Shown: one piece after another, positions 2,033 through 13,559 of the stretch
Layout: each line of letters opens with the position of its first letter
Position numbering within the stretch: position 1 is the stretch's first letter
Source: Sulfurimonas sp.
Lineage (GTDB): Bacteria; Campylobacterota; Campylobacteria; Campylobacterales; Sulfurimonadaceae
Length of the DNA: 36,864 nt
Direction of reading: 5' to 3'
NCBI RefSeq assembly: GCF_018698455.1
Contig: NZ_JABIOQ010000058.1
Coordinates: 1-36,864 of the forward strand
Position numbers and translations under genes: made by a program
Notes under the pieces: generated by a model
What the model saw: the letters and a program-made list of their open reading frames with translations, nothing else
What the model was told of the DNA's origin: nothing
Databases searched by the model: none

Positions 2033-2992
2033 TTACTTCTTAATTTTAACTACATAAGAAGAAAAAACAATATTGTTGAGTTCTGCAATAAGCTTATGAA
2101 AATTAAAATTAGTTTTATCTAGTAGGTCATCACTTACACTTTCAAACTCATCTAAATCTATTGCCGTTTTACTGTATATTGCAATATAAAGCTCTTTAAT
2201 TGGTCCTTTGTAAGGATTTACTATTGTAAATGTATCTTCATCTTTTCCATTAGGATAGTTAAAAAAATTATCTGATTTACGGTTCGATAGTAAAACACCA
2301 ACTTTTCCATTATGCTCAACATAAAGAATAGAAATATAACCAGCATCTTTATTGTGTATCTTAAAATACATTTTATCGTTTTGCTTATACTCTCTTTTAT
2401 TAGCTTTGATAGAAATTGTGTTACTTTTTGTATTTGAAAATAGCTTATAAAAATTATCTTGAGAAATGGGCAAGAAAATATCTTTATATGATATCTGCCA
2501 TAGATTATCTTTTCTGATGATTTTATAGTTTAGATTTTTCTTTATCTCACTGTTTAAACTTTTAACAAGAGGAGTGTTCTTTAAATATTGATTTTGTTTT
2601 TCATTTTGCAACTTTTTTGGTAAAAGTTTTTTAAATTTTTTCTCTAATGGGGAGTTGTCATATTTTACAGCAACATACCATTTTCCATCTGTTTTAACAG
2701 ACTTAAGAACCTTAACCCCACTTAACACTGCACTAGCTTCTGATTTGATTTTACTTGAAGAATTACTATTTATTTCTCCATTTACATCTGAATCTGAAAT
2801 ACTCAAAGTTGACTGGATTTTGACAGATATAAACTCTACTATACTAGTAGTAGCTTTTTGTTTTGCTTTTACTAGTTCTTTATCTATTCCATAACCGATA
2901 AGTTCATTTCTATTAGTTGGTTCTAAATTGTAGAACCAACTAGGATTAGCAAAGGACAGGATAGGTAGAAAGATAAATAAAACTATTTTCAT
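2033..2992 (-). CDS. Exported LPP20/DUF4384-like protein of the caspase operon
   Basis: I place the start at the ATG at 2992, one base after the caspase stop, because MKIVLFIFLPILSFA is a clean signal peptide. The ATG at 3049 would prepend a charged 19-residue tail. The mature protein of about 300 residues starts NPSWFYNLEP and continues with ELIGYGIDKELVKAKQKATT, the pattern of the LPP20 lipoprotein domain, although no lipidation Cys is present. From about residue 205 to 300 a beta-rich segment (KREYKQNDKMYFKIHNKDAGY, then GKVGVLLSN) resembles DUF4384, a domain often found with caspase-like peptidases. It probably acts in the periplasm or at the outer membrane with the two upstream lipoproteins. 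The domain calls are by eye. Confidence 0.65.
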   Translation of the reverse strand: MKIVLFIFLPILSFANPSWFYNLEPTNRNELIGYGIDKELVKAKQKATTSIVEFISVKIQSTLSISDSDVNGEINSNSSSKIKSEASAVLSGVKVLKSVKTDGKWYVAVKYDNSPLEKKFKKLLPKKLQNEKQNQYLKNTPLVKSLNSEIKKNLNYKIIRKDNLWQISYKDIFLPISQDNFYKLFSNTKSNTISIKANKREYKQNDKMYFKIHNKDAGYISILYVEHNGKVGVLLSNRKSDNFFNYPNGKDEDTFTIVNPYKGPIKELYIAIYSKTAIDLDEFESVSDDLLDKTNFNFHKLIAELNNIVFSSYVVKIKK

Positions 2993-2993
2993 A

Positions 2994-3932
2994 TTAATAA
3001 AGCTTTTGTTCTTTGTTTCCATAAATCTGAGGAACTTGTTTATATCCAAGACCTTTCATCAGGGAAGCTCTTCTTACTCTGCTTTTAATCTGTGGATAAA
3101 TTTTATGGAGATTAGTCTTACCATTTGCCAACTCTTTAATAAGAAAGTAAGTAAACATTCTTTGCTTTTTAGTTTCATAATCATTTGCAAAGTCTGTCGA
3201 TTTCCCTGCCGTAAAAACTGTAAGTTTATTTCCAGTTATAACTGTTTTATTTGTTCTTAAAACTGGAGCTACACCTTTATAGAGTAAACTTCCTTTATCA
3301 TCTTTTCCACTAAAACAACTATCCATAAATACAAATACTTTTTTAGCATTTGATTTTGAAAGTTTTGCATAGATTCTATCTAGTTGTAAGTTTGGTTCTA
3401 AATGAATTGCATCAGCACTCATATCATTTGGAAGCATATATGTATTTCCATCTTTACCTGGAACACCATGTCCTGCAAAGTAAACATAAATATTTCCATT
3501 TCTATCTGAGAGTTCTTTTATTAATTCTATTTTTGCTTTTATCTGTCCTGAAGTAGCTTCATTATTAAGTAAGGTAATGATGTTTTCTTTTGGTACACCT
3601 AATGTTTTATTAGCTAACTCTTCAAATGCTAATGCTGATAAGTCAGCGTACTCAACAGATGTATTTTCTTTATAAGAGTTTATACCTATAACTAAAGCAA
3701 AAGAGTTAAAATTTTCTTTGTAAGCTCTTGAAAATCTATATTCTTTCATTGAGTTATACTCTTTTTTAAGCTCTTCTTTTGAGTTAATAGTATTACCAAC
3801 TCTTACTATCTTTTCTTTATAAATAACTTTTATATTTTGTTTTGCTGGAGTATATGCATTAAGCTTTGGCTTAAGAGTACAACCAGAAAATGTAACTAGA
3901 ACAATAAAAATACCTAAAATAACACTCTTCAT
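2994..3932 (-). CDS. Caspase-like (C14 clan) lipoprotein peptidase
   Basis: This 312-residue protein starts with a lipoprotein signal (MKSVILGIFIVLVTFSGC, lipidated Cys18, no Asp at +2, so outer-membrane sorting is likely). A caspase-fold domain follows from about residue 75. FALVIGINSY forms the first strand, YVYFAGHG carries His155, and VFVFMDSCFSG carries Cys206. The dyad is therefore complete. Asp204 before SerCys is typical of metacaspase or paracaspase-like enzymes that prefer basic P1 residues; that specificity is inference. The C-terminus (RMFTYFLIKELANGKTNL) fits the fold's last helix. A surface-anchored caspase homologue between an orphan lipoprotein and an LPP20/DUF4384 protein suggests envelope proteolysis or signalling. 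The substrate is unknown. Confidence 0.85.
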   Translation of the reverse strand: MKSVILGIFIVLVTFSGCTLKPKLNAYTPAKQNIKVIYKEKIVRVGNTINSKEELKKEYNSMKEYRFSRAYKENFNSFALVIGINSYKENTSVEYADLSALAFEELANKTLGVPKENIITLLNNEATSGQIKAKIELIKELSDRNGNIYVYFAGHGVPGKDGNTYMLPNDMSADAIHLEPNLQLDRIYAKLSKSNAKKVFVFMDSCFSGKDDKGSLLYKGVAPVLRTNKTVITGNKLTVFTAGKSTDFANDYETKKQRMFTYFLIKELANGKTNLHKIYPQIKSRVRRASLMKGLGYKQVPQIYGNKEQKLY

Positions 3933-3936
3933 TTTA

Positions 3937-4443
3937 TTAATCTTCTTTTAGTTTTTGTAATTCTTCGTAACTTACTGGTGAGAATGGTGTTTTTCCAATC
4001 CAGAAACATTTAATATTAAACATAAATTCATCATCACTTAAACCAAAATTGAATGGTGCAAGTACACCAAGTTGTTCTTCACCGCGATCATATACGAAAG
4101 TGCCATCTGGAAAAACTAAATAACCAAAATCTCTACCCTGTAATTCTTTGTGTTTTAAAAGAATAGCTCTTTCATCAACAAGACCACCTTCAATTTCACC
4201 AAAAGATGAAACCTTTATATTTGCTGGAAGTTTATATCCCTTTATTAAGTCACCCTTATTGACTATAAACTTATGGGCACCTCCAACAAATCCATTTTGA
4301 CAATGAAAACTTTGATTTGCTTTCATCAAGACCTTATGATTGTTGATGCTATTAATATCCAAAGTATCAACATTATGTTTGAATGAACAGCCTGTAAAAA
4401 ATAAGCCCGACAACATAAATAGTATAAATATAAGTTTTTTCAT
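3937..4443 (-). CDS. Orphan lipoprotein, first gene of the caspase operon
   Basis: The 168-residue protein begins MKKLIFILFMLSGLFFTGC, a standard lipobox with Cys19 and Ser at +2. The rest is a compact mixed domain with no family I recognise. A GGAHKFIVNKGD segment lies near residues 54-65, an FPDGTFVYDRGEE segment near 111-123, and two further Cys (His-Cys near 49 and IKCFW near 149) could form a disulfide. It ends four bases before the caspase gene and is preceded by AAGGAA. It may be a partner, inhibitor or substrate of the caspase. That is inferred only from operon structure. Confidence 0.7.
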   Translation of the reverse strand: MKKLIFILFMLSGLFFTGCSFKHNVDTLDINSINNHKVLMKANQSFHCQNGFVGGAHKFIVNKGDLIKGYKLPANIKVSSFGEIEGGLVDERAILLKHKELQGRDFGYLVFPDGTFVYDRGEEQLGVLAPFNFGLSDDEFMFNIKCFWIGKTPFSPVSYEELQKLKED

Positions 4444-10802: not shown

Positions 10803-13559
10803 TTAGTCTATGCTAAGAGAATTTATAACGAACCAAGAACCTCTGTTTCCACCTCGCATCGAAATGTAGATTGCACTTACCTCTCCTTTAATTGGCAGAC
10901 TTGTAATACCAGGACTTGCTTTCCTTTGTGTACCAAGTCTGTGCCACTGGTTTTGTGCATAAACCCACACTTCCATCTCTCTTGCATAATAATAAGAATG
11001 CCAATCTATATAAATATTATTTACAGATTTTGGTGTATCAAATGCCACTTGAATAAAATCACTTTGATAATACCCATTAGTTAGTGTCTGACTAACCCAA
11101 CTTGTACCTTCATTACCATCAATTGTATTTTGAGGTACATATGAGTTATTGTAATAACTACCTGATGTAATACTTGCACCACTAAGAGTTGTTTCCTTAG
11201 TTGGAGTCTCTTCAGCTTCTTCATAAGTAGTAAACTCCCAAGTGGAAGCTAAAGATAAAGTGTTGTCATTAAGATCTTTAACTGTATTGCTTAAGTTAAC
11301 AGTATATTTTGTTCCATCACGAAGAGGAGAATCTGGAGTAATAGTTACTTGTTCACCTACTATTGAAATACTAATATTTACATTAGCCCCGCTTTGAGAC
11401 TTAATAGTTAGAGCTGATTCTAGGGATTCTAAGGTAACTTCTTCACTAAATATAATCTCTATATTGCTATCAACAGAAATATCAACAGCATTTGACTCAG
11501 GAGTATAACTTAATACTTCTGGTGGAACTATATCAGAGTTATCTTGTTTTACTTTAGTTGTAAAGCTTGAACTAAACGCAGTCTCTATAGTGTTCTCAGC
11601 CATATCTGTTACACCGCTAATGTTAATGGTATAAACACTTCCATAAGCTAATGCACTATTTGGTATGATACTTATTGTCTCGCCATTAACATTAAGTGTA
11701 CTTACAATATTAGTCCCCAATGCATCTTTTAATACAACTGTACTACTATTGACACTTGAGTTTTTAATAGGCTCACTAAATTTGACCTTAATAGTTGGTT
11801 CTACTGAGAGGTTAGTCGCATTTGAAACAGGAGTAATTGAAACTATTGTTGGAGCTATTGTATCAGGTTCTGTACATTCCCATGTTCCAGGAATTAAAAC
11901 AGCATCTAGAGATAACATTACTGATTTATATTCTGGTGAGCACTCTCCATAAACACCTGTTGCAGCTGTTTTAACAGAATTACGAACAGCCGAAAAACCT
12001 GTTCTGCTACCGATTGTATTGATTTGTGCTTCATACCAAATACGACTTGCTTTTTCTAAACCAATACCAGGAACACTTATATCACTTTTACCTTTAGGGT
12101 GTGTACCTCCACCTGCTAGTAGCGCATAAGAAAGATTATAAATACCACTATTTGTATGTACAAAACAGTTATCATTTTGTTGTGAACATGAGTTTGCTGT
12201 TCCTCTATCATTATAGTTATCATATGAGCGTCCATCTTTTGTTGGGTTATCCATATATCGCTCCCAACTCTCAGCATCAAGAGCTTCACCCAATATCCAT
12301 GTATTTTGTGTGATTTTAATCTCACTAGGATTGTCTATGTCTGAGCCACCTGATTCTGCCCATGACTGAATTGTCACTCCAAACATATCTGAAAGTGCTT
12401 CATTAAGTGCACCTGTCTCGTCTTCATACTTTAGTTTTGACTCATTATCTGTAATAGCATGTGTTAACTCATGACCCACAATATCGGGAGCTGAAGCAAA
12501 CTGATTAATATTGTTATCCCCTGCACCAAAGACTAGCGTGCCATTCTGACCGGTATAAAATGCATTTAGACCGCTACATCGTCGTGACTGCTGATCATAA
12601 AACTGTGCGTTAACAGTCATCTTAATAGCACCTCCATTAAGATCATAAGAGTCTCGGTTAAACATCAGCTTATAGAAGTTATATGAGTCAGCTAAAAAAT
12701 CATAAGCCTTATCAACAACTTTATTTCCTGTTGGTGTTGGACTATTTCGTCTAAGTTCACCTGGAAACTGATCGCACTCAACACCTTCATAAACACTCAC
12801 ATCAAGCGAGGAGTGTATCTGAGTATATTCTTGTAGTAACACCCCACTATTAGCATCTATATAAAACTCATCAAAGGCCTGTCCTCCATCAACATGTATA
12901 TATCTAACTTTCGAGCGGTATGTTAAAGATTGATTCTGATTTTTATCTGTAAAGACAACAAGTTCTGGTCCTTCATAAATTTTAGTTGTATCTTTGTTTC
13001 CATCTGTTCTAAGGTTTAGGAAGTCAGTCAGTGTCTGGTCTGCATCCATAGAAGCAGTGGTATCAATATCTACAAGTGTGTCATACTTACCAGAAATACT
13101 TTGAAGATTTAAATCTTTATCAATCTGAAGCACAAGTTCAGCTCCATCAATAGGTACGCCATTTAATGTCTGGTTAAAATGGTAGTAAGAGCTACCTGCA
13201 CCACCATAAGTTGAGTCAGTATATGTAAAGTTTATTTTATCTTGACGATGAGAAGGAACTAATGAGCTCATCAACAACTCTTTTGCATCATCTGTCGTGG
13301 CAACCTTTATAGTTTTACTGCTGTAACTTTGATAAACATCAAAAGTAGGACTCTTTTTCAGTTTGAGACTAGGAGTTGAACTATTTAAGTTTGAAGTCTT
13401 TTGTGCTGTAATATTTTTTTCTTCTTTTACAAAGCTAGAGAGAGGCTGGGATTCTTTAGATATTTCAACTTTATCTATTTTTTGCTCTTGTATATTATAA
13501 AGGCCTAACACTATAACTACTGCTATACTTCCACTTATTATTAGTCTTTTATTCTTCAT
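10803..13559 (-). CDS. Secreted M4 (thermolysin-family) metalloprotease with Ig-like and discoidin-like modules
   Basis: The 918-residue protein has an N-terminal signal or anchor (residues 5-22) and then an FTP/PepSY-type propeptide to about 250. The M4 peptidase domain spans about 255-565. His363-Glu-Leu-Thr-His367 and Glu387 (in GALNEALSD) are the zinc ligands with thermolysin-like spacing, and HTNSGIYNLSYAL supplies the later active-site His. Two Ig-like repeats follow (about 567-675 and 678-780), each starting near APTIVSITPVSNAT or PPEVLSYTPESNAV in the Big_5 style. A C-terminal discoidin-like domain (about 785-918) has NTIDGNEGTSWVSQ and IYIDWHSYYYAREMEVWVYA. The last domain may bind surface glycans. 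It is monocistronic with AAGGG before the ATG. Confidence 0.88.
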   Translation of the reverse strand: MKNKRLIISGSIAVVIVLGLYNIQEQKIDKVEISKESQPLSSFVKEEKNITAQKTSNLNSSTPSLKLKKSPTFDVYQSYSSKTIKVATTDDAKELLMSSLVPSHRQDKINFTYTDSTYGGAGSSYYHFNQTLNGVPIDGAELVLQIDKDLNLQSISGKYDTLVDIDTTASMDADQTLTDFLNLRTDGNKDTTKIYEGPELVVFTDKNQNQSLTYRSKVRYIHVDGGQAFDEFYIDANSGVLLQEYTQIHSSLDVSVYEGVECDQFPGELRRNSPTPTGNKVVDKAYDFLADSYNFYKLMFNRDSYDLNGGAIKMTVNAQFYDQQSRRCSGLNAFYTGQNGTLVFGAGDNNINQFASAPDIVGHELTHAITDNESKLKYEDETGALNEALSDMFGVTIQSWAESGGSDIDNPSEIKITQNTWILGEALDAESWERYMDNPTKDGRSYDNYNDRGTANSCSQQNDNCFVHTNSGIYNLSYALLAGGGTHPKGKSDISVPGIGLEKASRIWYEAQINTIGSRTGFSAVRNSVKTAATGVYGECSPEYKSVMLSLDAVLIPGTWECTEPDTIAPTIVSITPVSNATNLSVEPTIKVKFSEPIKNSSVNSSTVVLKDALGTNIVSTLNVNGETISIIPNSALAYGSVYTINISGVTDMAENTIETAFSSSFTTKVKQDNSDIVPPEVLSYTPESNAVDISVDSNIEIIFSEEVTLESLESALTIKSQSGANVNISISIVGEQVTITPDSPLRDGTKYTVNLSNTVKDLNDNTLSLASTWEFTTYEEAEETPTKETTLSGASITSGSYYNNSYVPQNTIDGNEGTSWVSQTLTNGYYQSDFIQVAFDTPKSVNNIYIDWHSYYYAREMEVWVYAQNQWHRLGTQRKASPGITSLPIKGEVSAIYISMRGGNRGSWFVINSLSID

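Follow-up and report, generated by a model that had tools for sequence, protein, structure and literature searches.

Bacterial relatives of the caspases are mostly discussed as cytosolic proteases of cell death and defence. The orthocaspases, or prokaryotic metacaspases, possess a C14 domain with a His/Cys dyad and an Asp preceding the Cys, and have varying fusion or operon partners (PMC3501461, PMC5756287). The 2012 survey portrays Epsilonproteobacteria as poor in orthocaspases and, in the portion available to us, describes a pairing neither with a small lipoprotein nor with an LPP20/DUF4384 protein. In cyanobacteria, DUF4384 is fused to the caspase in 23 of 473 orthocaspases (PMC8283722, PMC7475262). 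LPP20 domains are found in exported proteins such as H. pylori LPP20/HP1454 and a Campylobacter flagellar periplasmic scaffold, and TPR-CHAT proteases belong, like the caspases, to clan CD. Furthermore, DGR-diversified conflict systems combine caspase or CHAT effectors with C-type-lectin-like sensors (PMC10907252, PMC7517822).

The locus described here lies in a 36,864-nucleotide stretch of DNA (the window) from Sulfurimonas sp., a marine sulfur bacterium. The window is an entire contig (C7) of a genome (G000) of 76 contigs and 2.23 Mb, which its named relatives assign to Sulfurimonas or its close vicinity. The locus shares the C14 domain, the dyad and the preceding Asp with orthocaspases, but its caspase is, judged by sequence, exported and lipid-anchored, and is encoded together with a small lipoprotein and a separate LPP20/DUF4384 partner. 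As in cyanobacteria, caspase and DUF4384 associate; however, DUF4384 stands here behind an LPP20 domain in a separate exported protein rather than in a fusion. Compared with the LPP20 family, this partner has an additional macroglobulin/Ig-like C-terminal domain, has no lipobox and is encoded beside a caspase. In contrast to the TPR-CHAT proteases, the window protease is of the C14 and not of the CHAT type, and no CRISPR or gasdermin context was seen, although a TPR-CHAT lipoprotein elsewhere is coupled to the same family of small lipoproteins. The operon differs from the DGR conflict systems in having no lectin domain and in a host genome without reverse transcriptase. A caspase-DUF4384 fusion has been reported for cyanobacteria (PMC8283722); for the caspase + LPP20/DUF4384 pairing we found no description in the open-access literature.

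The operon is located on the minus strand and consists of genes for the small lipoprotein (positions 4443-3937, 168 aa), the caspase-like lipoprotein (3932-2994, 312 aa) and the LPP20/DUF4384 protein (2992-2033, 319 aa), separated by 4 and 1 bp, exactly as originally predicted. Note that the ATG at 2992 was taken as the start of the last gene, and that the longer TTG-start reading frame in the ORF list is mechanical. The prediction of export signals on all three products and lipoboxes on two of them agrees with our inspection, which was made by eye rather than with a signal-peptide predictor: the small lipoprotein (MKKLIF...FFTGC) has its lipobox cysteine at C19 (4389-4387), the caspase (MKSVIL...TFSGC) at C18, and the third protein (MKIVLF...SFA/NPSWF) has an ordinary signal peptide. 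All three products are therefore predicted to be exported, and the two lipoproteins would most likely be placed in the outer membrane, as their lipoboxes are not followed by Asp at +2. The surroundings had been described as decayed throughout, which holds only for the immediate flanks: an AbiEii-like nucleotidyltransferase fragment (1133-1567) forms with the preceding 130-aa reading frame an apparently decayed AbiE-type pair (744-1567), a broken response-regulator remnant is found at about 1740-2000, and unreadable gene remnants extend from 4500 to about 5260. Genes from 5563 onwards are intact. A scan for promoters and terminators gave nothing beyond chance level, and NCBIfam hits to FosY and Cu_nitrite_red were rejected, their scores lying far below cut-off.

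The middle gene product (2994..3932, minus strand) matches Peptidase_C14 (PF00656; 3.5e-13, 50.2 bits, cut-off 21.4) and no CHAT domain in Pfam. The catalytic His155 (FAGHG; codon at 3468..3470, minus strand) is invariant, and the Asp204-Ser205-Cys206 stretch (MDSCFSG; 3315..3323, minus strand) contains the catalytic Cys. The predicted dyad proved exact in its residue numbers: the protein aligns well around both positions, and His155, Asp204 and Cys206 are conserved in an alignment of 25 relatives, with D204 invariant. The gene is under purifying selection, with dN/dS values of 0.09 and 0.11, the latter from the comparison with its C54 paralogue. The protein is predicted to be a protease with intact catalytic residues, and its cleavage specificity is probably of the Arg/Lys type, because Asp204 is expected to acidify the S1 pocket. 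Four further caspase genes are present in the host genome (contigs C54, C45, C31 and C47). The C54 protein, 79% identical over the domain, is a lipoprotein with an extra N-terminal domain accompanied by a divergent LPP20/DUF4384 gene, C45 encodes an Lcl_C-caspase fusion with an LPP20/DUF4384 gene directly behind it, and on C47 a WD40-caspase adjoins a FlgO/DUF4384 protein. Among related loci, one envelope caspase has its catalytic Cys replaced (FIDSGFS; L026:1486-3177) and is likely a pseudo-protease in an otherwise similar locus, and one window-type caspase, adjoining its own LPP20/DUF4384 gene, is apparently frameshifted past the DSCFS motif (L050:2976-4250).

The last gene product (2033..2992, minus strand) contains an LPP20 domain (PF02169; 1.5e-10, above cut-off; residues 17-111, 2660..2944, minus strand), whereas the expected DUF4384 match is borderline (6.2e-6, 26.6 bits, i.e., 0.4 under the cut-off of 27.0). 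It has no lipobox by eye, while some of its relatives do. In an AlphaFold model built with 15 relatives (pLDDT 85), the N-terminal part resembles two known structures, 9hmf (Foldseek 3.7e-4), a flagellar periplasmic scaffold of Campylobacter, and 4kzs, the H. pylori protein HP1454 (71 residues aligned with 25% identity, rmsd 5.5). The C-terminal part (residues 190-319; 2036..2425, minus strand), which includes the DUF4384 match, forms in the model a macroglobulin/Ig-like beta-sandwich (VIA Z 9.3, rmsd 2.3 Å over 91 residues), a Z value that is common for this fold and no proof of function.

The pairing of this protein with caspases recurs in many genomes; the original prediction had named such recurrent linkage, for all three genes, as support for a system. 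A joint search for both proteins in 151 genomes of the family placed a caspase within 2.5 kb of 18 of the 21 strong LPP20/DUF4384 loci (E <=1e-20), against roughly 0.3% expected by an estimate that is rough but lies far below this outcome. Elsewhere, in a set of 79 caspase loci taken from named genomes, 45 have an LPP20/DUF4384 gene nearby, 33 of them at <=100 bp (all 33 on the caspase strand) and 12 more at <=2.5 kb; 18 of the other 34 loci are situated <=2.5 kb from a contig end. A plasmid, pSULFM1 of Sulfurimonas aquatica, carries the pair as well (annotated by PGAP as "caspase family protein" and "LPP20 family lipoprotein"); there (L184, 7158-10733) a 263-aa protein without Pfam match is encoded along with them. 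In Vibrio, Photobacterium and Shewanella (L093:4846-10906; also L088, L095, L098) we found a conserved run of six genes for mostly exported proteins, in which the caspase is followed by a 220-aa exported protein, an LPP20/DUF4384-type protein, an SLT/MltC-like lytic transglycosylase, a small LPP20 protein and a membrane protein. The transglycosylase in this run, and the resemblance of the LPP20 domain to proteins of the flagellar basal disk and to secreted proteins of H. pylori, would suit ordinary housekeeping of the envelope, i.e., maturation or turnover of surface lipoproteins or assembly of LPP20-type structures without any role in conflict. We consider this improbable in view of the patchy distribution of the caspase (31 of the 151 family genomes), the plasmid copy of the pair and the close relatives of the window caspase in Gammaproteobacteria.

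The small lipoprotein (3937..4443, minus strand) had been regarded as an orphan. Indeed, Pfam revealed no domain in it, and single-sequence searches yielded signal-peptide matches only. The gene neighbourhoods of the nearest full-length relatives of the window caspase, however, revealed small lipoproteins in the equivalent position (L070, L071). As pairwise similarity was weak (p 0.0075 by shuffling for the window protein against L071), a profile was built; when the window protein was left out of it, the profile of the remaining 15 members still gave this protein 43.4 bits, whereas none of 5000 shuffled sequences exceeded 12.3. The protein belongs, therefore, to a very divergent, unnamed family of two-cysteine lipoproteins rather than being an orphan. 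Besides the lipobox Cys, the family is characterized by two more Cys, a P-x-G and a C-terminal P-F (invariant in mature numbering: C1, C30, P94, G96, C128, P135, F136). Profile searches retrieved 11 copies in Sulfurimonas AH-709-D16 (G506), which holds eight to nine caspases and in which most copies are not beside a caspase, more copies in the genome of L070 and one in G099; a genus-wide search added members in G125, G748 and G679. None of the 16 members had a noteworthy Pfam match, and the only PHROG match covered 25 residues (E 0.004). Folded alone, the protein reached a pLDDT of 40. Designed beta-trefoils, found in a PDB profile search (E 0.04), were discounted as evidence.

Between the window and other genomes, the caspase retains 54-66% identity and the LPP20/DUF4384 protein 42-54%, but the small lipoprotein only 22-29%. 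Such fast divergence suits a recognition role. It would also suit an inhibitor or immunity lipoprotein restraining a toxic envelope protease, as would the position of a small two-cysteine lipoprotein directly upstream of the caspase in the same operon; as intact caspases of the same clade are commonly found without a linked lipoprotein, an inhibitor appears distinctly improbable to us.

In seven loci the small lipoprotein abuts another lipoprotein. Five of these neighbours are C14 caspases of one kind (the window, L070, L071, L168 and L202). The proposed combination of a putatively lipid-anchored caspase with a dedicated lipoprotein has gained stronger support than could be known from the window itself. 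L070, from a Gammaproteobacteria MAG, has the same gene order as the window, and L168 and L202 have no adjacent LPP20/DUF4384 gene. In the sixth locus (L172:2740-5624) a TPR-CHAT lipoprotein, by its sequence another envelope protease of clan CD, overlaps the small lipoprotein by 4 bases. In the seventh, a 179-aa Ig-like lipoprotein without protease domain abuts it (L201); besides the small lipoprotein and this tether-box protein, the operon (L201:7627-12791) encodes a TPR lipoprotein as well as an exported protein of 921 aa for which Pfam gave no match. The caspases of the window, L070, L071 and L168 fall into one supported clade of 11 rows (98/88) in which Campylobacterota and Gammaproteobacteria are mixed (L202, found later, is not in the tree).

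The window caspase has a short, putatively lipid-anchored, Lys/Arg-rich tether (residues 18-73; 3714..3881, minus strand) with the membrane-proximal tether box CTLKPKLNAYTPAKQNIKVIYKEK, a feature that recurs in other proteins adjoining the small lipoprotein. The linked caspases of the clade have a short tether beginning with C-x-[KR]P-x-[LF]-x2-Y-x2-P, whereas those without linked lipoprotein have a different, mostly longer N-terminus; 4 of 5 tether-type caspases in the clade are lipoprotein-linked, compared with 0 of 6 others (Fisher p 0.015). Furthermore, a tether profile built from caspases picks the non-caspase of L201 among 3157 ORFs (E 3.6e-7; 30.8 bits, best shuffle 12.5). The box is present in 6 of the 7 neighbours of the small lipoprotein, being degenerate in L168. 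Among 267 lipobox N-termini, 8 contain the box, a count that is descriptive only, as the pattern was written after viewing the sequences; 6 of the 8 adjoin a small lipoprotein, one of them being the CHAT protease, and in L073 the box is present without a linked small lipoprotein. As both the TPR-CHAT protein and a non-protease with the same box adjoin it, the lipoprotein tracks the tether and not the protease fold. Most simply, then, the small lipoprotein would work with the tether, and the effector behind the tether may be exchangeable.

Csx30 is cut by a TPR-CHAT protease and gasdermins are cut by their proteases, and by analogy the small lipoprotein could be the substrate of the caspase, released or activated by cleavage. 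Its pairing with two different clan-CD proteases, the abundance of stand-alone copies in G506, the genome richest in caspases, and the basic KKG-like motif kept in most family members would be compatible with a substrate. Nevertheless, the KKG stretch is absent from several members, and the partner in L201 is a tether-box protein without protease domain; we regard cleavage of the lipoprotein as unlikely.

We prefer, with evenly balanced confidence, an envelope-anchored caspase module of Arg/Lys type, in which the small lipoprotein would dock on and control the tethered effector and the LPP20/DUF4384 protein would serve as a scaffold. Judged by sequence, the C14 domain hangs from its lipobox cysteine on the short Lys/Arg-rich tether; the small lipoprotein would sit on it in the membrane, most likely the outer one, as sensor or regulator, and the LPP20/DUF4384 protein would act as periplasmic scaffold or co-factor. 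An envelope signal or an intruder might alter the small lipoprotein and so activate the caspase, which could then cleave behind Arg/Lys in targets of the periplasm or the membrane, perhaps beginning with its own tether, although self-cleavage within the tether is a guess. Such a module may function in envelope conflict or stress. More tentatively, and with a likelihood well short of even, the locus could represent a whole class of envelope surveillance, where small lipoproteins dock on the tether box and control interchangeable anchored effectors (C14, CHAT, Ig-like) together with an LPP20/DUF4384 scaffold, and where caspase-type proteolysis in the periplasm answers attack or damage.

That unrelated genomes, too, encode the lipoprotein beside caspase-like proteases suggests a so far undescribed proteolytic system in the bacterial envelope. 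A recurrent and sometimes plasmid-borne set of an anchored caspase, an LPP20/DUF4384 partner and a lipoprotein family that also pairs with CHAT points to caspase-type proteolysis in this compartment, and the named genes and the short peptide motif make the idea testable. A role in defence or competition, surmised in the original prediction, is possible but found no backing: PADLOC recognized one of the three operon genes with its generic caspase model and gave no match to a described anti-phage system, no caspase match was obtained in the phage collection searched, and the neighbours of the operon vary between genomes.

Sister envelope caspases fused to or located beside exported Lcl_C (C-type-lectin-like) proteins are encoded in L057:8036-10485, L052:4084-15224 and L054:2459-4835, and in G140 envelope caspases with Lcl_C proteins are present in tandem copies. 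Lcl_C is a known DGR target. A DGR link was rejected, as RVT_1 is absent from the host genome and from five more genomes of the genus (it was found in 3 of 14 controls and 3 of 13 genomes). Directly upstream of another subtype of envelope caspases there are exported proteins of 260-290 aa (L058:286-1113, L060:2304-3104, L065:4575-5354, also contig C31); those of L058, L060 and L065 have a beta-barrel-looking sequence and, where tested, no Pfam match. Two MAG records titled Helicobacter pylori PMSS1 (L089, L143) contain caspases that group with those of Arcobacter, and the title is probably wrong. Finally, a large peptidase of the M4 (thermolysin) type, which also contains Big_5 and F5/8 type C domains, is encoded in the window at 10806-13559.
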